Origin: Mesorhizobium sp. L-2-11
GTDB lineage: Bacteria; Pseudomonadota; Alphaproteobacteria; Rhizobiales; Rhizobiaceae
Direction: 5' to 3'
DNA length: 64,000 bases
Assembly: GCF_016756595.1 (NCBI RefSeq)
Contig: NZ_AP023257.1
Coordinates: 4,108,001-4,172,000 of the forward strand
The position numbers and the translations under genes are program-made. The first letter of the stretch is position 1. Each line of letters begins with the position of its first letter. The notes below the pieces were generated by a model. It saw only the letters and a program-made list of their open reading frames with translations. It ran no database searches and had not been told where the DNA came from. Positions 45,723 to 55,942 of this stretch are shown piece by piece.

Positions 45723-47123
45723 GTTCTGCAAAAATGGCGTGGCATTCAGCGGTGACGTTGGCGTGTCCGCCGCGCAGCCCCCGTGTTTAGCGGAGCGGCG
45801 GACATGGCGGCCGCGTCAGGCGGCCAGTGCCCTCAGGTTCTCCTTCTTGTGCTCGCGCAGATGATCCATGTTGAGGTAGCGGGTCGCCTCGAGCCAGTTC
45901 TCGTGGATCTCCACCGCCAATGCCCGAACCAGCCGCAAACAGCTCTGCGGGTTGGGGAAGATGCGAACGACCAGGGTGCGCCGCTTGATCTCCTGGTTCA
46001 GCCGCTCCAGCATGTTCGTCGACTTCATGTGCTTGTGATGCGGCAGCGGCAGCCGATAGAAGCTCAGCGTCTCCTCGATGTTGTTCTCCACCCAATCCAC
46101 CAGCTTCGGGTATTTGGCCTGCCATTTGGCGATCCACTGCGCCAGGTCGCGCTTGACCTCGGCGAGGTCGCGCCGGTCATAGAACCATCTGAGCTCCATC
46201 AGGCAGTCGTCATCGACCTTGCGCGGCACATAATCGAGCGCGTTTCTGAGGAAGTGCACGTAACAGCGCTGCCAGACTGCCTCGGGCAGGACTTCGCGGA
46301 TCGCTGCCCTGAGCCCCGGATGGTCGTCGGAGACGACAAACTCGACGCCGGCGAGCCCGCGCTGCTTGAGCCCTGCCACGAACGCGCGCCAGCTCGAATG
46401 GCTTTCACGGTTGGCCAGCTCGACACCGAGCACCTGGCGCCGGCCTTCCCAGTCGACGCCGATCGCCACCAAGACGGCCTGGCTGGCGATCACGCCGGCC
46501 TCGCGCGCCCGCTCGTAGCGCGCGTCCAGAATGAGGTACGGGTAAGGTTCGGCAAGCCGCTGCTCAAAGAACGCCTTCAGCGCCTCATCCAGCCGCGCCG
46601 TCGCCTGGCTTACCGTCGAGGCCGAGAAGGAATGGCCGCACAGATCCTCGGTGATCGCCTTCACCTTGCGCGTCGACACGCCTTGCACGTACATCTCGAC
46701 CAGCGCCGATACCAGTGCCTTCTCCGAGCGCTGGTAACGCTCAAACAACTCCGTCGAGAACCGGCCGGCCCGATCTTGCGGAACCCGAAGTTCCAGCACG
46801 CCAACCCGCGTCACAAGCTTGCGTTCGTAATAGCCGGACCGGTAACCAACCCGCTCCGTCGTCCGCTCGCCTTTCTCGGCCCCGATCGCCTCCGTCATCT
46901 CGGCTTCCAAAGCCTCCTGCACCACAGTCTGCAAAACTCTGCGGAAGCCGTCCTCATCCGACAACAGCAACGCTTTCAACTCGCCTCTGCTCAGTCTAAC
47001 CTCTCGCTTGGTCATGGCACTTACCCTTCCACGGGAATCGGTGATCGCAACGTCACCAGCGTGCCATGGCCGCCCCTCGCCTCAGAGTAAGGGCTGTTCT
47101 CTCTCCAGAGCTTTTTGCAGAAC
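45723..47123 (-). mobile_element. IS256-family insertion sequence
   Basis: The transposase gene is enclosed by inverted repeats: gttctgcaaaaa at 45723-45734 and its complement tttttgcagaac at 47112-47123. The outer ends may extend a few bases further; I could not fix the target duplication. It lies directly left of the IS5 3' fragment. Confidence 0.8.
45816..47015 (-). CDS. IS256 family transposase
   Basis: A 399-aa mutator-type DDE transposase, complete. LQTVVQEALEAEMTEAIGAE, then GYRSGYYERKLVTRVGVLEL form the N-terminal domain. The catalytic residues lie in YLILDARYERAREAG, FVVSDDHPGLRAAI and NMLERLNQEIKRRTLVVRIF. CYVHFLRNALDYVPRK is also typical. The length is normal for the family, so it may be active. 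Confidence 0.95.
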   Translation of the reverse strand: MTKREVRLSRGELKALLLSDEDGFRRVLQTVVQEALEAEMTEAIGAEKGERTTERVGYRSGYYERKLVTRVGVLELRVPQDRAGRFSTELFERYQRSEKALVSALVEMYVQGVSTRKVKAITEDLCGHSFSASTVSQATARLDEALKAFFEQRLAEPYPYLILDARYERAREAGVIASQAVLVAIGVDWEGRRQVLGVELANRESHSSWRAFVAGLKQRGLAGVEFVVSDDHPGLRAAIREVLPEAVWQRCYVHFLRNALDYVPRKVDDDCLMELRWFYDRRDLAEVKRDLAQWIAKWQAKYPKLVDWVENNIEETLSFYRLPLPHHKHMKSTNMLERLNQEIKRRTLVVRIFPNPQSCLRLVRALAVEIHENWLEATRYLNMDHLREHKKENLRALAA

Positions 47124-47358: not shown

Positions 47359-47697
47359 TCAGTCCAACAAAAGCACCACTGCGGGATGCAGCTTCTTTAG
47401 ATTCGGCAATGATTTCGACTGCCAGGGTATGTCGGGCGTTCCACGCACGACGAGTTGAACATCGGGATGCTTGCGCACCTCGATGGTAAATTTCGCCAGC
47501 AGGTTGATGCCGGAAGAGTTCAGAAAGTGAAGGTCCTTCAGATTGAGCGTAATGGAAGCGGGATTCGAGGCAAGAACACTGGCCGCCAACGCCGTGATAG
47601 GCGCACCGGCGTCGGAACTGGCAAGCCGCATTGCACCGTCGAAAAAAATTTCGCTTCCTTCAGTCCACACGCGGTAGTCGTCTGTCTTGATTTCCAT
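47359..47697 (-). CDS. STAS-like regulator (slr1659/SiaC type)
   Basis: A small protein of about 112 aa with an anti-sigma-antagonist (STAS) fold: [20 protein letters not shown], then [20 protein letters not shown], where the serines in NSSG are the usual phosphorylation site, and [20 protein letters not shown]. The DIPWQ.KSL stretch is typical of the slr1659 group. An ATG six codons upstream abuts the previous stop and may be used. It is the last gene of the operon and would be phosphorylated by a HATPase partner and dephosphorylated by the PP2C protein. Its effector is unknown. Confidence 0.8.
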
Positions 47698-47715
47698 AGC
47701 CTGGCTTCGTTTCAT

Positions 47716-48276
47716 TTAGTTGTGAATTTGCGAGATCGGAATGGACGCATATGTCTCCACGCAAATCCGATCGCTTTCGTCGGCGGCGCTGAATATCCAA
47801 GCCAGGCGTGCGCCGTAATCGCTCATCAACGTCAGCAATCCGAGTCCGGAGCCTGTCACCTCGGGGTTCGCGGCATTCAGCTCAATTCGCTGTATCAGCA
47901 GGTCCTCTGGGTCGCCAGCCGTGATGTCCGCCAGGAGGTCTTGGAACCCAGACGCAATTTTACCCTCAACGTCATTCGACACCTTGATCTTGAAGCACTC
48001 CGAATCCATCGACGCCTCGATCAGAATCTCGCCCGGTGCACGAAACTTGACGGCATTTTCGATGAGCTCGTTGACCAGATATCCGATGCTGTGCCGCACT
48101 TCCATGTAATCATTGCGGGACGACCGGAAGCGTAACGCGAAAACATCGGCGATGAAGTCCGAGGTCGTGGCACAATGACGCCAACTCAAATCGAGAGGTC
48201 CGTCGAACAGCCGTACGCGACTGACGCTCTCCTTGATCCCGATTGCAATGTCAGGCGTACCGAACAGCGTTGTCAT
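47716..48276 (-). CDS. HATPase-like serine kinase/anti-sigma regulator (slr1658/SiaB type)
   Basis: A 186-aa protein with a GHKL-like ATP-binding fold. The N box is in SIGYLVNELIENAVKFRAPG, followed by KIKVSNDVEG and a glycine-rich GSGLGLLTLMSDYGARLAW. It lacks any membrane or sensor part. By analogy to SiaB and RsbW it should phosphorylate or sequester the STAS protein encoded directly downstream (its stop abuts an ATG). The phosphatase gene ends 2 bp upstream, so translation is probably coupled. Confidence 0.82.
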   Translation of the reverse strand: MTTLFGTPDIAIGIKESVSRVRLFDGPLDLSWRHCATTSDFIADVFALRFRSSRNDYMEVRHSIGYLVNELIENAVKFRAPGEILIEASMDSECFKIKVSNDVEGKIASGFQDLLADITAGDPEDLLIQRIELNAANPEVTGSGLGLLTLMSDYGARLAWIFSAADESDRICVETYASIPISQIHN

Positions 48277-48278
48277 GC

Positions 48279-50663
48279 CTATGTGTGCCTTATGATCACG
48301 AGGGTGATGTCATCGTGGATCTTCTGGATCCCGATATGGGCCATCAGATCGTCGATGATCCCAGTCTTGATGTCTTCGGCGCTGCTGCCGTGACGTCTTT
48401 GTACGCTCTGGCTGAGGCGCTCGAACCCGAACAACTTTCTTTCGTGGTTTTCCGCCTCGGTCACACCGTCGGTGTGCAGCACGATCACGTCGCCGCTTTC
48501 GAACAGGATGTCACGCGTGGCAATGAACTTCGAGATGTCATTCTCCAGGCCAACCGGCAGACCCAGATCAATCGTATCGATACGTTCGACTTCCCCATCT
48601 GCACGCACGACAAGAACGTCCTCATGCTGGCCGGACAGCGTTACCCGCTCATCTTCGAAGTCAAGAAAGGCCAAAGAGAGATGCTTGTCGGTGTTCGTCC
48701 GCTCAATGTTCTTGTAGATCGCTCTGTTCAGCCGATCCAGAAACTGGTGCGGATTCGCTTCGTCGCTCTCCTGCAGCGCGCGTGCAACGGATTGGACCAT
48801 CAGCATCAGCACGCCGCTCTCAAGACCATGACCGGTCACGTCGCCGATGCCGATCTTGACCCGCGACCCGTTCTGCAGGACGTCATAGTAGTCGCCGCCA
48901 ACCTCGTCAGCCGGGCGCATGTAGGCTGCGATCTCCAGCCCAGGAATCGCTTCGAGTTCGAATTGTTTCGGCAGGACCATCGTCTGAATCTGCCTGGCAA
49001 CCGCAAGCTCGGCACCGAGGCGTACGTTCTCGTCTCGCAGCTTTTCGTTGAGCGCCGAAATCTCCTGGTTGGCGTCCCCGAGCTCTCTGGTTCGTTCGTC
49101 GACGAGCTGCTCGAGGTTTTCCGTGTGGAAGCTGATCTGCTCAGCCATCCGGTTGAAAGCGACCCCCACCGCTCCAACCTCGTCGCGCGTCGGAATGCTT
49201 ACCCGGACGGAATAGTCTTTCGCCTGCAACCGCTTGGCGGCCCCGGCAAGCGCACTGAGGCCTGCAGTGATCCGCTTTGAAACTCCGAAGACAGCCGCAA
49301 AGACGATCAGGAGCGAAACGATAACTGCGATGACCTGGGTGATCAGGATCCGGTTGGTTGCGCTGGAAATGCTCTGCTGCGCTGCAAGGAGGGAAGCATA
49401 AATTTCCCGTTCGGGGACGACGAAGCCAAGCATCAGAGTTTCGGCCGTGATGGAGCCCGTACTATTCCAGAGATTGACTGGGCTTAGTCGGCGAAGTGCG
49501 ACGATGTACGGTTGGGCTTTGCCGTTTTCCTCAATCGAAATGTGCTTAATGACTGTCTTGTCGTCAGCGGGAAGTTCGAGCGCTGCGACGGTCGCGTGCG
49601 TACTCTTTTTGAGCGAGCGATCGAGGCCGGTAACGCCTTGACCTGCCGCGCCACTTGCGATCTTGAGCCCGAGCATTTTCTCGCCTTCGGGCTTGATCGC
49701 GAGCACATTGCCGTTCGACATGGTGAGAAAACCGAAGCCCGTATCGGCGACCTTCACGCTTTCGACGATGTCAGCGAGTTGATCGAGCGTAACGTCGGCA
49801 GCGACCATGCCGGCGACATTACTGCGGTCTTTTGTCCAGAGTGGGTGGAAGAAGCTCACTATGAGCTTGCCGGTAATCGCGTCGATATAAGGAGCAGTCG
49901 CAGTGATGTCATCGCCTTTTACGGGGCGCGAATCGGGCTTCCTGATCCAGCCTTCCCAGCCCTCATAGACGCCAGGAAAGAAGAAATCCCAGAAATTTGC
50001 TTTGTCGTGGCCTGGATAAAGCTTGTCGAAGGTCTGTGCCTGATCGGAATAAGGAACCGTGCGCATGATCGGTCCTGCCTTCGGCCCTACGTAGTAGACC
50101 TGCAGCTTCTTGGCGCCAGTTGACATCTGGCTTGTGCCAAAAATATCGAAGATCGCACTCTCCTGAATGTCGCGGAGAATTTCGGGCTTCGGTTGGTGAT
50201 CAGCGGAGAGGAGATATCCCCAGACACTCATGACCGAAGGCGATCCTTGCCGGGTCTGCAACCAGTTTCCCGTGGCGTCATATGCAAGCGGCGCATTAAA
50301 ATAGGGGTTCTTCGCCAACGCCTTGCCGATCGCATCTTTTGCTTCCGGATAATCAATTAGTTGCTGCATGGACGCTGCAAGTGCGGTCACCTCGGAGTGC
50401 ATGCGGCCGAACAGGAGATCGGCGCGCAGCGCCGTCGTCTCGATATAGTTCTGGAGGTATTCCTGGCTTGCCTTGGTGAGGCCGCTCTCGATCTGGTGCG
50501 TCGCGTCCCGGGAAAGCCGGTTCACATTCCACAGCGCGACGCCGCCGCCGACGAGGAGGTCGAACAGCACCGCCCCACCCACAACGATCAAGAATTTGGC
50601 GCGGAAGCTGTTAAGCCGGAGGATAGGCCACGCTCTGGGCGGTGTTGCATCCAAATCGGTCAT
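48279..50663 (-). CDS. Membrane receptor with HAMP and SpoIIE/PP2C phosphatase domain
   Basis: A 794-aa protein. TM1 lies at about residues 22-45, a large periplasmic sensor domain of dCache type at about 46-425 (GVYEGWEGWIRKPDSRPVKG, VSFFHPLWTKDRSNVAGMVA), TM2 at about 432-455, HAMP at about 458-510 and a coiled linker at about 515-565. A SpoIIE/PP2C phosphatase domain follows (RPADEVGGDYYDVLQNGS, GIGDVTGHGLESGVLMLMV, LHTDGVTEAEN, DDITLVII), with all metal-binding aspartates visible. It resembles SiaA and RsbU-like receptors that dephosphorylate a STAS protein when a ligand is bound. The start overlaps the stop of the methyltransferase gene (atga). Confidence 0.92.
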   Translation of the reverse strand: MTDLDATPPRAWPILRLNSFRAKFLIVVGGAVLFDLLVGGGVALWNVNRLSRDATHQIESGLTKASQEYLQNYIETTALRADLLFGRMHSEVTALAASMQQLIDYPEAKDAIGKALAKNPYFNAPLAYDATGNWLQTRQGSPSVMSVWGYLLSADHQPKPEILRDIQESAIFDIFGTSQMSTGAKKLQVYYVGPKAGPIMRTVPYSDQAQTFDKLYPGHDKANFWDFFFPGVYEGWEGWIRKPDSRPVKGDDITATAPYIDAITGKLIVSFFHPLWTKDRSNVAGMVAADVTLDQLADIVESVKVADTGFGFLTMSNGNVLAIKPEGEKMLGLKIASGAAGQGVTGLDRSLKKSTHATVAALELPADDKTVIKHISIEENGKAQPYIVALRRLSPVNLWNSTGSITAETLMLGFVVPEREIYASLLAAQQSISSATNRILITQVIAVIVSLLIVFAAVFGVSKRITAGLSALAGAAKRLQAKDYSVRVSIPTRDEVGAVGVAFNRMAEQISFHTENLEQLVDERTRELGDANQEISALNEKLRDENVRLGAELAVARQIQTMVLPKQFELEAIPGLEIAAYMRPADEVGGDYYDVLQNGSRVKIGIGDVTGHGLESGVLMLMVQSVARALQESDEANPHQFLDRLNRAIYKNIERTNTDKHLSLAFLDFEDERVTLSGQHEDVLVVRADGEVERIDTIDLGLPVGLENDISKFIATRDILFESGDVIVLHTDGVTEAENHERKLFGFERLSQSVQRRHGSSAEDIKTGIIDDLMAHIGIQKIHDDITLVIIRHT

Positions 50664-51838
50664 AGCGGCTTGCGTCCCGATGCAACCCAGATCGGCCAGC
50701 CGGCATAGCCCTTGGAGTGGAGCGCAGCGAAGATGTGGTCCTGGAAGCCCTGTCGGAACCGCCTGATAAACGCCGGTGTGTCACCTCGCTTGGTAGCCAT
50801 CTCGCCTGCATAAACATTCTCCCATGCCGCTATGACGTCCGCGAAGTCCTGTGGATCGCCGTCGTGGTTGGTGACCATGAAGGACTCGACCCGAATGTCT
50901 TCGAGCCCCGCTTCGATCAGGTAGCGTTTGCTCTTCGGGCCGAGCTCAATATCCATCTGGAAGTGCGCCCACAGCTTGGCGACCTCGTTATAGGTCCACT
51001 GGATGCTGTCGGCGCGTGGTTCGCCCAGGCAGTGCGAATTTTTTTCATTGGTGATGTAGACACGTCCGCCCGGCTTGCAGATGCGAAACAGTTCCCTGAG
51101 GATCAGTTCGGGCTTGTTGAACACCTGCAGCGAATGGCGGCACGTGACGAGGTCGAACTGATTTTCCTCGAGCAGCATTTCTGATGCATCGCCATAAGTG
51201 TACTCGATGCCCTTGATATCGAACTCCGCCGCCACGTTTCGCGCATAGGCGAGGCTCGACCTCGAGTGGTCGAGGGCGACGATCCGCGATGGCTGGAACT
51301 CCTTCTGCACGAGCACGGCGAAATCACCTATGCCGCAGCAGATGTCGGCCATCACGATCCCGGGCCTCATGCCGTGCCGCGGCAAGATTGCGCGCTCGTG
51401 GCGCCAGGTCATCTTTGTTTGTGTGCGCAGGATCGGCACGAAGCCGCCTTCCTCGAGGAAGCCCTGCCCCGGATAGAATTCGCTGTCATACTCCTCGACC
51501 GTGATGTTCGGTTCGATTCCGCTCAGGCGACCGAATTTTCGCGAGGTCCATCCGACGACGCTTGACGTGATGATGACGAATTTGAGGTCGGGTCGAGCGC
51601 GACAGGCGTCAATGATAGTCCTCGAAAAGCTGTGAAACGCAGCATTGTTCATCTGCGTCAGGCGCCTGACATTGACGTAGAGAACGCCGCGCACACGGCC
51701 GATCGCATCACGAAGCAATGCTATGCTGGGCCCAAGCTCATCGATTGCCTGAGGCCGGACCACTCCCGATATGGAGAACTCCTGGCTGTTGGCGTCGTAT
51801 TGCGCCCTGAAGTGCGGGAGAAGGTCGTAGGGACTCAA
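50660..51838 (-). CDS. STAS-like domain fused to SAM-dependent methyltransferase
   Basis: About 392 aa. Residues 15-120 look like a STAS/slr1659-type domain (NSQEFSISGVVRPQAIDELG, then VLYVNVRRLTQMNNAAFHSF and KFVIITSSVVGWTSRKFGRL). Residues about 160-330 form a class I methyltransferase: ADICCGIGDFAVLV (SAM motif I), IVALDHSRSSLAYARNVAAE (motif II), GDASEMLLEENQFDLVTCRH and ELFRICKPGGRVYITNEK. A C-terminal tail follows. The start is a TTG that overlaps the previous stop (ttga). This codon choice and the overlap imply coupled translation. The methyl acceptor is unknown. The placement in a partner-switching operon suggests STAS-controlled methylation. Confidence 0.8.
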   Translation of the reverse strand: MSPYDLLPHFRAQYDANSQEFSISGVVRPQAIDELGPSIALLRDAIGRVRGVLYVNVRRLTQMNNAAFHSFSRTIIDACRARPDLKFVIITSSVVGWTSRKFGRLSGIEPNITVEEYDSEFYPGQGFLEEGGFVPILRTQTKMTWRHERAILPRHGMRPGIVMADICCGIGDFAVLVQKEFQPSRIVALDHSRSSLAYARNVAAEFDIKGIEYTYGDASEMLLEENQFDLVTCRHSLQVFNKPELILRELFRICKPGGRVYITNEKNSHCLGEPRADSIQWTYNEVAKLWAHFQMDIELGPKSKRYLIEAGLEDIRVESFMVTNHDGDPQDFADVIAAWENVYAGEMATKRGDTPAFIRRFRQGFQDHIFAALHSKGYAGWPIWVASGRKPL

Positions 51839-52356
51839 TTTTGCAAGCCCTCGAGCGGAAGATCGACGACAAGCTTGATTGCATCGCCGTCGGCTTCCTC
51901 GATCCGGAGCGTCGCGTTGTAGTCGACAGCCAGTTCCAGGAGTACGACCTCGCGGCTGGGCGCGAGATCCCCAGACACCGAATTGAGGTACCGCTCTCTG
52001 GCTTCTGTTCCTGCGACGTGCGCCACGGCTTCTTCGTAGAATTGGCGCTCCTCCGGCACGCAAGGAAGTGTCAACTCGATCCTGTCCGTCGCGCCATGGC
52101 GTGACACCCTGCATGCCAGTTCGCCGTCGGCATGGCGCGTACGAAAGGCGACTTCCAGCAATTCGTTGAAGGCAGAGGAAAAGAGATTTGAATGATGGAC
52201 CGAGTCTGACCTGTTTTGACTGATCATCCGGGCCATGTATGTCGAGATATAATCGCAATGTTTCCAAGCGGAGACAAAAGCTTTGATTTCCATGTCGATC
52301 TGAATCATCGGCTCAAAAGTCGGCTCGCCAGCCGGCTCATGATGAACAGTTTCCAT
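51835..52356 (-). CDS. HATPase-like regulator, first gene of the operon
   Basis: A 173-aa protein with the layout of the slr1658/SiaB type. A helix with SNLFSSAFNELLEVAFRTRH resembles a weak N box, followed by strands (ELACRVSRHGATDRIELTLP) and a C-terminal ATLRIEEADGDAIKLVVDLP. The glycine-rich lid is not evident, so nucleotide binding may be lost. The start at 52356 has gaggat upstream; an ATG seven codons earlier is possible. Its stop overlaps the TTG start of the STAS-methyltransferase gene, so it is probably the dedicated partner of that protein. Confidence 0.72.
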   Translation of the reverse strand: METVHHEPAGEPTFEPMIQIDMEIKAFVSAWKHCDYISTYMARMISQNRSDSVHHSNLFSSAFNELLEVAFRTRHADGELACRVSRHGATDRIELTLPCVPEERQFYEEAVAHVAGTEARERYLNSVSGDLAPSREVVLLELAVDYNATLRIEEADGDAIKLVVDLPLEGLQN

Positions 52357-52532
52357 CGGTATCCTCACTTGTTCCATCAGTATTGAGCCCCCCGCGGGGT
52401 GATGGCCTCCGCAACGAAAAATTTCATCGCGCCCGTGACGAGTCAGTCTCGCACCGACTCGAAGAATTGCGCGGTATCTGCCTCGATCGTTCTACAAATC
52501 TCCACTTTATCGTTAACAAAGGGTGCAAGGCG

Positions 52533-54350
52533 CTAGTGCGCCCGATTTGATTCCTCCATCGCCCGTACCACCCTCAGCGGGGACCGCCCGATAAAATCGC
52601 CGATCGCCTCGGCTCCAAGCGGCTTTCCCAGGAAGTTGCCTTGCAGGCAATCGCAATTCTCCTTGATCAGCCACCGTGCCTGTGCCGACGTCTCGACCCC
52701 CTCGGCAGTGACATTTATCCCCAGGCCGTGCGCCAGAGTCATGATCGATCGCACGATCGTTTGGCTTTTGAGATCGGTCTCCAGGTCCGCAATAAAGTAC
52801 CGATCTATCTTCAAAGTATCGAAGGGAAAGTTTTTAAGGTAGCTTAGCGATGAATAGTATGTCCCAAAATCGTCGAGCGAAATTCGGATTCCCAAAACGT
52901 TCAGAGTGTTCAACGTGTCGATATTGTCGATCGTCTTTTCAAGCAGGACCGTCTCGGTTATTTCAAGTTCAAGTCTGTCGGCTTCGATTCCAACTGCGTC
53001 GATGATCTGAGCGACTGTGTCCGTCAGCGAACCGCTAAGGAACTGAGCCGGCGACAGGTTCACTGCGACTGTCAGCGAGGAAGGCCACGTCAATGCCTGG
53101 CGACAGGCTTCCTCGAGCACCCATCGCCCAATCTCGTCCATCAGGCCGTCGGCTTCGGCGATCGGTATGAACACGTTGGGTGGAATGGTTCCGAACTCGG
53201 GGTGCCGCCACCGCAGCAGCGCTTCGAAACCCATCACCGACGAGGGGGGGCGGATGAGCGGTTGATACTCCAGATAAAGCTCGCCCCGCTTCAGCGCGGT
53301 TCGAAGGCTGCGCCTCAGATTCTCGCGTTGCTCGAGCAAGAGCAGCATCGAACGGTTGAATGTTCGAGCGCAGCCGCGTCCATCTGTCTTGGCCGCATAA
53401 AGAGCAATGTCAGCGGCTTTCATCAACTGTTCGCCATCGGTCCCGTGCTCCGGCCCGAAAGCAATTCCGATACTCGAACCAACGAAGACGGGAATGCCGT
53501 TAATGACGAACGGGTTCTTGAACGCGTCGACTAGCGATCCGGCGAGGCGCTCAGCCTCTGCCGGCTGCTCCTTGCCCAATTGGATGACAGCGAACTCATC
53601 GCCGGCATACCGGTATGCGGATTCGCCGTCCTGCAGCGCGTCGCGAATACGACCCGCAGCGAGTTGAAGAAGAGTGTCGCCTGCTCCATGGCCGAGCGTG
53701 TCGTTGACCGCTTTGAAATCGTCAAGGTCGATTTGCAGAAGGGCGGCTTTCGGCTTTGATCCGCCGAGGGCTGCCATCGCTTGCTGCAGCCGCTCACCGA
53801 ATCGCCGCCGATTCTGCAGTCCGGTCAGCATGTCGTGCGTCGCCTGATGGAGCAGAATTACATGCTCTTGCTCCTCCGCTACGCTCCGCCCATCGCGCTC
53901 CCTTGATTCAATGATTCCCACACCATTTGCTGTGGCGAAAACGAAAGCGGACCGCGGCGCTTCGCCCGATGATCGCGGCAAATCGATGCTTGCCGGTGAG
54001 CCGCCGTGGAACACACGAAGAAATTCGTCGCGATATTTCGCATCGAGGAAGCTCGGGTAGATCTCCCAAACGGCGGCACCCGGCACCACCGCGCCTCCGT
54101 ATACGGCTTTGAGCTTGGTTGCGTAGTGCGTCAGACAGAAGTCGCGATCATAGAACGACAAAAGTTCGGTCGTGTTCGCCAAAAGGTCAGCGAGCAGCGC
54201 TTCGCCGGGACGTGGTGCATCGCTTGAGGAAGGCCCCTCACTCTCCGTGCCGACGGCTGATGCCTCCGGGTGCAATAGCCACCTCCATGGGCGGTGAGAA
54301 TCCACGTCCCCCGGCCCAGAAATAGCATAACCGCCAAGCTTGGCAAACAT
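52533..54350 (-). CDS. GGDEF-EAL cyclic di-GMP enzyme with PAS-like N-terminus
   Basis: A 605-aa cytosolic protein. Residues about 45-125 look like a PAS-type sensor (LANTTELLSFYDRDFCLTHY). The GGDEF domain (about 170-330) carries YRYAGDEFAVIQLG, the active AGDEF variant, and a DxLT start HDMLTGLQNRRRFG. The EAL domain (about 345-595) has VMGFEALLRWRHPEFG, LEITETVLLEK and SLDDFGTYYSSLSYLKNFPF, with the usual metal ligands apparently present. It could both make and degrade c-di-GMP. It lies 176 bp upstream of the partner-switching operon in the same direction. The SiaABC system also works with a diguanylate cyclase, SiaD. Confidence 0.9.
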   Translation of the reverse strand: MFAKLGGYAISGPGDVDSHRPWRWLLHPEASAVGTESEGPSSSDAPRPGEALLADLLANTTELLSFYDRDFCLTHYATKLKAVYGGAVVPGAAVWEIYPSFLDAKYRDEFLRVFHGGSPASIDLPRSSGEAPRSAFVFATANGVGIIESRERDGRSVAEEQEHVILLHQATHDMLTGLQNRRRFGERLQQAMAALGGSKPKAALLQIDLDDFKAVNDTLGHGAGDTLLQLAAGRIRDALQDGESAYRYAGDEFAVIQLGKEQPAEAERLAGSLVDAFKNPFVINGIPVFVGSSIGIAFGPEHGTDGEQLMKAADIALYAAKTDGRGCARTFNRSMLLLLEQRENLRRSLRTALKRGELYLEYQPLIRPPSSVMGFEALLRWRHPEFGTIPPNVFIPIAEADGLMDEIGRWVLEEACRQALTWPSSLTVAVNLSPAQFLSGSLTDTVAQIIDAVGIEADRLELEITETVLLEKTIDNIDTLNTLNVLGIRISLDDFGTYYSSLSYLKNFPFDTLKIDRYFIADLETDLKSQTIVRSIMTLAHGLGINVTAEGVETSAQARWLIKENCDCLQGNFLGKPLGAEAIGDFIGRSPLRVVRAMEESNRAH

Positions 54351-54570: not shown

Positions 54571-55713
54571 TCAGCTTCCGAGCGCTTTGAGCCAATCTTC
54601 AAAGGAAGAGGCCCCCTCGTGTCCGGCATGCGAAACAGAGTGGGCGGGGCGCGGCAACACCACGGAACTTCGGACTTCGCGGGGGCTGTAACCGAATTCC
54701 TTGCTAAATGCTCGGCTGAAATTAGCCGCTGAACTAAATCCGACGGCTTCGGCAATATCAACAATGCGCCGGCTGTCCGCCGGATCGCTAAGCGCAACAT
54801 GGGCTGCCAGGAGTCGGCGACTTTGTATGTAGTGGAGAACACCACCGCTCGGTTCGAACAACTGATAAAGACGAGTGCGCGAGACGCCGAGCGCCCGGCA
54901 CATTGAATCCGGTGTCAGATGAGCCGCATCCAGATTGTTGTGGACATATCGACGGGCTCGCTCCATCAGCGCGACACTCGCCAATTGTTCGGTGGCCGCG
55001 GCATGTTCTGCCGGCGGCGAGAGGCAGGCAATGATCATGCTGCGTGTTGCGTGCACGATGCGGGGCAGATCGTCAGCCGTGAGACTGCGCAGTCTTGCTT
55101 GGATGTTGTTGAGGTAGTCGAGCAAAAGGTCGGCAAAGTTGCCGGACAGAATTGAATTATTCTTTGCGTCCAGGGTTGCCGCCGCATCGGCGAACAAATC
55201 ACGCGGCAAATAGAGAAGGAGACTTTGGGAATCCGTTGCCCTCCCGCGAAACGGGTAGCCAAGCGATCTAAGCTCCAGTTTGCCCGGCCGGTTTTCCGCT
55301 ACGCGGCGATCGACCTCCGTCCACGACCGGCCAGTATATGGCAAAGCGATATACCAGTGATCGATCGAGCTGGATCGAAGCTTCGCAGTAGAACGCATAT
55401 AACTATGTGCCGGTGCGCGCTGTTGAACGATCAGCATGCCGCCGAGGTTCCAAGCCGTGTGGTCGGCGGGAAAGCCATCGTCGAGCGATTTGTCATCCGG
55501 CAACTTGACCTCGACAAGCGGAGCCATATGCGCCTGCCAGGCGACGAATTGATCCTCTGGCGCCAGTTCGAGCGTCGAAAAGGGCAAAGGTTCGAGCGCC
55601 GGCGCAAGTGACGGGGCAGCCTCATCGTCAGGTTGAGCTTCGCGCGGCCAACGACGTCGATCGCGCTCAATCGCCTGCCTCGCAAGCGCCTTGTCCTGCC
55701 TCTTAGCGTCCAT
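54571..55713 (-). CDS. AraC family transcriptional regulator
   Basis: A 380-aa regulator with an N-terminal AraC-binding-like domain_2 region (residues about 60-240, AWNLGGMLIVQQRAPAHSYM and HWYIALPYTGRS) and a C-terminal double helix-turn-helix (about 270-365, LTPDSMCRALGVSRTRLYQL, then IVDIAEAVGFSSAANFSRAF and KEFGYSPREVR). The start at MDAKRQDKALARQ is preferred over 15 codons upstream. The N-terminal 50 residues are charged and poorly conserved in type. It is 220 bp upstream of the GGDEF-EAL gene in the same direction and may regulate it; this is inference from position. Confidence 0.88.
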   Translation of the reverse strand: MDAKRQDKALARQAIERDRRRWPREAQPDDEAAPSLAPALEPLPFSTLELAPEDQFVAWQAHMAPLVEVKLPDDKSLDDGFPADHTAWNLGGMLIVQQRAPAHSYMRSTAKLRSSSIDHWYIALPYTGRSWTEVDRRVAENRPGKLELRSLGYPFRGRATDSQSLLLYLPRDLFADAAATLDAKNNSILSGNFADLLLDYLNNIQARLRSLTADDLPRIVHATRSMIIACLSPPAEHAAATEQLASVALMERARRYVHNNLDAAHLTPDSMCRALGVSRTRLYQLFEPSGGVLHYIQSRRLLAAHVALSDPADSRRIVDIAEAVGFSSAANFSRAFSKEFGYSPREVRSSVVLPRPAHSVSHAGHEGASSFEDWLKALGS

Positions 55714-55942
55714 CGCGTGGTGCTTTATCCGATTCCGGTATGCCCATCTCCACCGCAATCATGTGGTGTATCACAGGCATCTGGCAAGGCCAGCGGAACG
55801 CGAGTCCACAGAGCGCCATCACGCTGGGTTACAGCAAGAAATGCATTCCGAGATAAGTTTCTGGATGCGACGATAACGACACTCTTCAACTTGGCGCGTA
55901 TAGAGTCTGGCACGGTGAAAGCGTAGTTGAGGAGACAACGAA
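55714..55942. other. Divergent intergenic region
   Basis: It separates the AraC gene and the small HTH gene and must hold their promoters. I see no clear box; a GGAAC at 55798 has no CGTT at the right distance. Confidence 0.4.

Follow-up and report, generated by a model that had tools for sequence, protein, structure and literature searches.

A rhizobial partner-switching operon with one predicted phospho-switch and a probable non-phosphorylating pair linked to a methyltransferase

The window analysed here, a 64,000-nucleotide stretch of the genome of Mesorhizobium sp. L-2-11 (contig NZ_AP023257.1, positions 4,108,001 to 4,172,000), carries a six-gene locus that is very probably the Mesorhizobium ortholog of the bgr partner-switching operon of Sinorhizobium meliloti, with its genes in the order R, S, T, U, W and V. 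We propose that it encodes a membrane-gated switch with one complete phosphorylation circuit, and that this working circuit probably drives a second, non-phosphorylating docking pair joined to a methyltransferase. We put the probability of this explanation as a whole at about 0.65. A preliminary description of the locus had read it as two kinase/STAS pairs served by one receptor phosphatase, in place of which we propose a single working switch accompanied by a conserved pair with a predicted pseudokinase. The result ties a locus found in many rhizobia to a published signalling system, the published output of which, mixed-linkage glucan from BgsA, cannot hold generally. It also points to a methyltransferase output, and to a gene that bears the name UbiE in many public records.

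Gene order and probable identity with the bgr operon

Gene content and gene order are observed directly. All six genes lie on the minus strand of the window (Table 1), and the open reading frame list shows the last five to be packed as the preliminary description had stated: HATPase 1, the STAS-methyltransferase fusion, the PP2C receptor, HATPase 2 and the stand-alone STAS protein are joined, in that order, by two successive 4-bp overlaps and then by gaps of 2 bp and 0 bp. The GGDEF-EAL gene ends 176 bp upstream of the HATPase 1 start at 52356. This start is likelier than that of the longest open reading frame (51835-52377), because GAGGA lies just upstream of it, the first residues of the longer form are missing from 59 of 80 homolog rows, and many of the public homologs listed are 171-175 amino acids long.

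We take bgr to be a six-gene operon and bgrR to be SMb20447, a tag for which we found no paper in the open-licence literature; the S. meliloti system was reportedly described by Baena et al. 2019 (Environ Microbiol 21:3379), whose work we know through the papers that cite it. Excerpts of the citing papers state that BgrV phosphorylation is controlled by the phosphatase BgrU and the kinase BgrW, which thereby determine how active the cyclase BgrR is (PMC7647112), and name the set BgrSTUWV, with the diguanylate cyclase BgrR (PMC8457831). These letters, as given in the excerpts, agree with the gene order of our locus, and S. meliloti 4H41 (L087) has the six genes in identical order. On pSymB of strain 1021 the GGDEF-EAL gene lies at 458865-460559, the fusion at 461150-462328 and the receptor at 462325-464685. 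A search confined, among PP2C families, to SpoIIE gave one match each in pSymB and in the 4H41 genome, inside this operon. The window genome likewise has a single SpoIIE match, so the receptor is its only SpoIIE-family phosphatase, which bears out the single receptor phosphatase of the preliminary description. Two features separate the window from S. meliloti: its genome gives no BgsA match at E 1e-20, and its BgrT has Ala at the acceptor position where the Sinorhizobium rows have Thr.

Table 1. Features of the operon and its surroundings in the window
Feature	Position	Strand	Basis or remark
GGDEF-EAL protein (BgrR ortholog), accessory output	52533..54350	-	Family models; AGDEF and EALLR motifs present
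HATPase 1 (BgrS ortholog), predicted pseudokinase, distant slr1658 superfamily member	51835..52356	-	N-box Asn replaced by Val; lid glycines absent
STAS-methyltransferase fusion (BgrT ortholog)	50660..51838	-	STAS at about residues 9-113; class I S-adenosylmethionine (SAM) methyltransferase from about 140; position 66 is Ala
Receptor (BgrU ortholog): dCache-like sensor (weak match), HAMP, SpoIIE/PP2C phosphatase	48279..50663	-	Family models
HATPase 2 (BgrW ortholog), predicted active Ser/Thr kinase	47716..48276	-	N-box Asn74; lid residues SGLGL
Stand-alone STAS protein (BgrV ortholog)	47359..47715	-	NSSG phosphoacceptor motif (Ser67/Ser68), invariant in 94/94 rows
AraC-family (FeaR-like) regulator, frequent operon neighbour	54571..55758	-	Family models; adjoins 54/94 loci

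To judge conservation we assembled 94 loci (the best 80 of 274 confirmed, and 14 further ones), all located by a search for the methyltransferase part of the fusion, which would miss clusters lacking it. Residue counts refer to 94 rows, the window and 93 loci, and L036 and L118, like L078 and L115, are the same records. The survey of relatives that had been suggested for the five-gene order found it intact in 93 of the 94 loci, the exception (L072) being disrupted. A GGDEF-EAL gene lies upstream of this core in 84 loci; eight are without it, in one (L076) it is not codirectional, and L072 gives only a partial best match. Around those eight loci, which belong to families f77, f196 and f213, the 16-19.5 kb fetched contain no tblastn match to the GGDEF-EAL protein at E 0.01. 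Identity of the fusion to that of the window is 61-90% over 34 diverse rows. The fusion gene was found at E 1e-50 in 36 of 99 genomes of the genus, 12 of 297 of the order and 4 of 385 of the class, and at E 1e-40 in 6 of 349 of the phylum, in samples that each include the window genome and that overlap.

Some copies have decayed or multiplied. In two of the 36 genus genomes the fusion gene is split or partial, and disrupted, split or partial copies in Mesorhizobium genomes include L072, G1036:C11 and G1002:C25. Ensifer aridi LMR001 and S. meliloti GR4 have two copies each (L076, L077; NC_019848, NC_019849).

The two HATPase/STAS pairs

Family membership was established with NCBIfam models named for slr1658 and slr1659 of Synechocystis. 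HATPase 2 and the lone STAS protein exceed the cut-offs (NF047703, 180.2 bits against 100; NF047705, 133.2 bits against 100), whereas their counterparts score below them. HATPase 1 matches only NF047703, at 45.5 bits, as a distant homolog, and had no Pfam match in the family-model scan; fusion residues 9-113 match NF047705 at 31.8 bits in the whole protein and at 35.1 bits in the N-terminus alone. These weak assignments hold up at the level of sequence profiles, since at E 0.001 the slr1658 model was matched by all 41 HATPase 1 sequences and the slr1659 model by all 19 fusion N-termini, and profile-profile comparison aligned HATPase 1 with HATPase 2 (E 8.9e-9) and the fused with the lone STAS (E 4.7e-8). 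The preliminary identification of a HATPase-like gene at 51835 and a STAS-like fusion N-terminus was therefore sound, as was the claim that the second STAS carries an enzyme, for which methyltransferase families match at about residues 140-290. Searches of PDB sequences led from the fusion to methyltransferases, from the receptor to PP2C and chemoreceptor sensor domains, and from the STAS profile to RsfB and SpoIIAA-type proteins (best E 0.0016); for HATPase 1 they gave no match.

Many of the HATPase 1 homologs listed carry the NCBI name 'ubiquinone biosynthesis methyltransferase UbiE'. No methyltransferase family matched HATPase 1 in the family-model scans, and the name has perhaps been carried over from the adjoining fusion gene.

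The residues expected of a working kinase and substrate are concentrated in one pair. All 94 rows of HATPase 2 have the N-box Asn, 92 have lid glycine 144 and 93 have lid glycine 146, and Ser68 of the lone STAS protein is present in every row. In the related kinase Slr1861 an N-box Asn serves as a Mg2+ ligand, according to the model described in the portion of PMC12329169 available to us; we infer that it corresponds to the N-box position of HATPase 2 and HATPase 1. In HATPase 1 this Asn occurs in none of the 94 rows (Val 74, Thr 8, Ile 6, Met 3, Leu 3) and in none of the 120 homologs listed out of 252, a set that overlaps with the loci. Eight of the 94 rows have Gly at the second lid position and one (L111) has a nearly complete lid, which suggests common descent. 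Retention of the gene is indicated by dN/dS values of 0.11-0.25 in nine comparisons among Mesorhizobium, a sign of purifying selection.

The fused STAS domain has diverged in parallel. In the profile alignment the NSSGI motif of the lone STAS protein stands opposite NNAAF of the fusion. At acceptor position 66 the 94 rows have Thr (47), Ala (36), Val (8), Leu (2) or Met (1) and never Ser; among 125 listed fusions, again overlapping with the loci, the counts are Ala 73, Thr 48, Ile 2, Met 1 and Val 1. Besides the window, 35 loci have Ala, most of them titled Mesorhizobium; Thr is found in Rhizobiaceae as well as in some Mesorhizobium, Phyllobacterium and Aminobacter. Val occurs in exactly the eight loci without the GGDEF-EAL gene (L095-L097, L109-L113; 8/8), a coincidence that may reflect one tree branch only. 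This use of Thr, Val and Ala without Ser suggests a role in packing and not in phosphorylation. In the enzyme part, the SAM-motif residues D165, G169, G171, D190 and D217 show no change in any of the 125 fusions listed, nor in a set of 35 diverse fusions.

Two active kinase/STAS pairs were considered and rejected on the residues at the N-box, the lid and the acceptor position. The preliminary description thus stands as far as the homology of the two pairs goes, but not in its view of them as two kinase/substrate pairs. The methyltransferase-linked pair looks unable to phosphorylate, and binding is probably its sole mode of action. Direct control of the methyltransferase by a phospho-switch, as had also been suggested, is unlikely because HATPase 1 is without the N-box Asn and the fused STAS without a conserved phosphoacceptor.

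The pairing of this type of STAS with a methyltransferase is consistent within the proteins that could be recovered. A search with fusion residues 1-135, able to show only proteins of 0.55-1.75 times the length, gave 235 proteins, and all of the 120 listed carry methyltransferase families. We looked for the same STAS type joined to other enzymes and dropped this candidate, the 120 of 235 matches listed being methyltransferases throughout. Among 318 genomes of the class, a search at E 1e-6 revealed no slr1658-type protein outside the operon, and the three genomes that matched carry the operon. At one f77 locus (L096:7545-8510) a soluble PP2C-like gene, read by eye, is divergent from the operon.

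Proposed circuit, alternatives and known systems

Every binding and regulatory step that follows, including its sign, we infer from the families and residues described above. The ligand state of the receptor BgrU would set its PP2C activity. BgrU would dephosphorylate, and HATPase 2 (BgrW) phosphorylate, the lone STAS protein BgrV at its NSSG motif. BgrS and BgrT, descended from the same two families but stripped of the kinase Asn, most lid glycines and a conserved Ser acceptor, would form the docking pair, BgrS holding BgrT. Unphosphorylated BgrV would then compete for BgrS and displace BgrT, thereby setting methyltransferase activity, and, in loci that have the GGDEF-EAL gene, would act in parallel on its product BgrR. 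For the function of BgrS or BgrT we found no paper in the open-licence literature.

Several points weigh against this model. The acceptor Thr seen in 47 rows could be phosphorylated in those species, if not in the window. The N-E-L-L-E residues next to the lost Asn are retained in HATPase 1, as is the lid Gly in the eight rows noted, and a canonical N-box may be dispensable for the action of some ATPase-fold proteins. The HATPase and STAS folds are assigned from profile statistics, and the match to bgr is drawn from synteny, the single SpoIIE gene and excerpts of citing papers.

The receptor, which gates the proposed switch, matches HAMP and SpoIIE above cut-off and dCache_1 below it (34 versus 45 bits), and the R-x-W-Y/F amino-acid-binding motif was looked for in the sensor and not found. 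Between the window and L024 (50650-49400), identity is 57-72% in the receptor sensor half and 79-83% at the fusion-gene end, as against about 90% over most of the remaining operon; L017 and L018 show the reverse pattern. The sensor module seems to have been exchanged by recombination among Mesorhizobium.

The alternative that survives best borrows its logic from the Rsb system, in which RsbT activates RsbU and RsbS sequesters RsbT. Here HATPase 1 would activate the PP2C receptor, the fusion would sequester HATPase 1, and the methyltransferase would modify the receptor or a partner. The successive 4-bp overlaps of the HATPase 1, fusion and receptor genes fit such a unit, and so does the way in which the C-terminal portion of the methyltransferase and the sensor of the receptor have diverged, or been exchanged, together as a block in Mesorhizobium. 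However, the receptor already owns a sensor and the linkage of the block may be plain recombination, and we consider this arrangement unlikely, if somewhat less so than the others weighed here. That HATPase 1 phosphorylates the fused STAS and the receptor reverses it is improbable: the homology of both pairs and the Thr of 47 rows speak for it, but HATPase 1 is uniformly without the N-box Asn and seldom has the second lid Gly, and the acceptor position holds Ala in the window, and Val in each of the eight loci without GGDEF-EAL.

The operon also differs from the systems with which it is most readily compared. The preliminary description had held that known systems have one kinase, one STAS and one phosphatase, which is too narrow in view of the BgrSTUWV set (PMC8457831) and of the icfG operon of Synechocystis, where, according to excerpts of PMC12329169, one kinase acts on two STAS proteins encoded with it and one PP2C in a single operon. 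Both STAS proteins of icfG are kinase substrates, and those excerpts name no pseudokinase or methyltransferase fusion. The SiaABCD system of Pseudomonas aeruginosa shares a PP2C, a kinase, a STAS-like substrate and a cyclase with our locus. Yet the receptor C-terminal half scores 130.7 bits with the SiaA model, far under its cut-off of 700, and HATPase 2 scores 17.9 bits against 85 for the SiaB subfamily, which places the locus outside SiaABCD. SiaC, according to literature excerpts, is of the DUF1987 type and phosphorylated on Thr68, and neither a second pair nor a methyltransferase is found among SiaA, B, C and D. For slr1658, the part of PMC7555055 available to us reports that disruption reduced recovery from iron limitation.

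Output of the switch and neighbouring genes

The c-di-GMP (cyclic diguanylate) output foreseen in the preliminary description is plausible, though not universal. Where the GGDEF-EAL gene was matched its motifs are intact (AGDEF in 85/85, E-x-L-x-R in 84/85), and eight loci keep the core without it. The enzyme could be the only regulated output, with HATPase 1 and the methyltransferase an unrelated side branch and the lineages without GGDEF-EAL having lost the gene or using another cyclase. Control of the cyclase BgrR by the bgr switch in S. meliloti, as stated in excerpts of PMC7647112 and PMC8457831, agrees with this view. In a tree of 40 fusions, midpoint-rooted for drawing, the seven rows without GGDEF-EAL moreover share the same side of a 100/99 branch, a pattern equally compatible with one loss or one gain of the gene. 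But the retention of the core by eight loci of three families, with no GGDEF-EAL match in the stretches fetched, and the high conservation of the fusion leave a c-di-GMP-only output with little probability.

The glucan link is narrower still. Four motifs quoted in the excerpt of PMC5567048 that we used place the glucan synthase BgsA at pSymB 403635-405641. We searched 30 genomes, 24 of them with the fusion gene and two, G501 and G962, apparently the same genome, and six gave a match at 78-97% identity. The window genome and eight further genomes of the genus gave none at E 1e-20, and the eight genomes without GGDEF-EAL gave none at 78-97% identity, two of them having only a 34-35% match. Control of BgsA, which is a function reported for S. 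meliloti and not part of the gene set, is therefore not found in the window genome, and because BgsA matches are missing from this genome and others, mixed-linkage glucan cannot be what the switch governs in general. The methyltransferase may represent the more ancient output. As a more tentative proposal, one that we hold possible at somewhat less than even odds, the ancestral output would have been a pseudokinase-gated methyltransferase, in which the phospho-STAS circuit competes for the dead HATPase while the STAS-methyltransferase stays unphosphorylated, and to which the c-di-GMP enzyme and the glucan link were added later in part of the rhizobia.

The surroundings of the operon vary. An AraC FeaR-type regulator gene is near it in 54 of the 94 loci, upstream in 29, downstream and convergent in 24 (at a distance of 2-3 kb in three cases) and otherwise placed in one. 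In the window, family models identify an IS256-family transposase gene (45816-47015) about 340 bp downstream of the operon.

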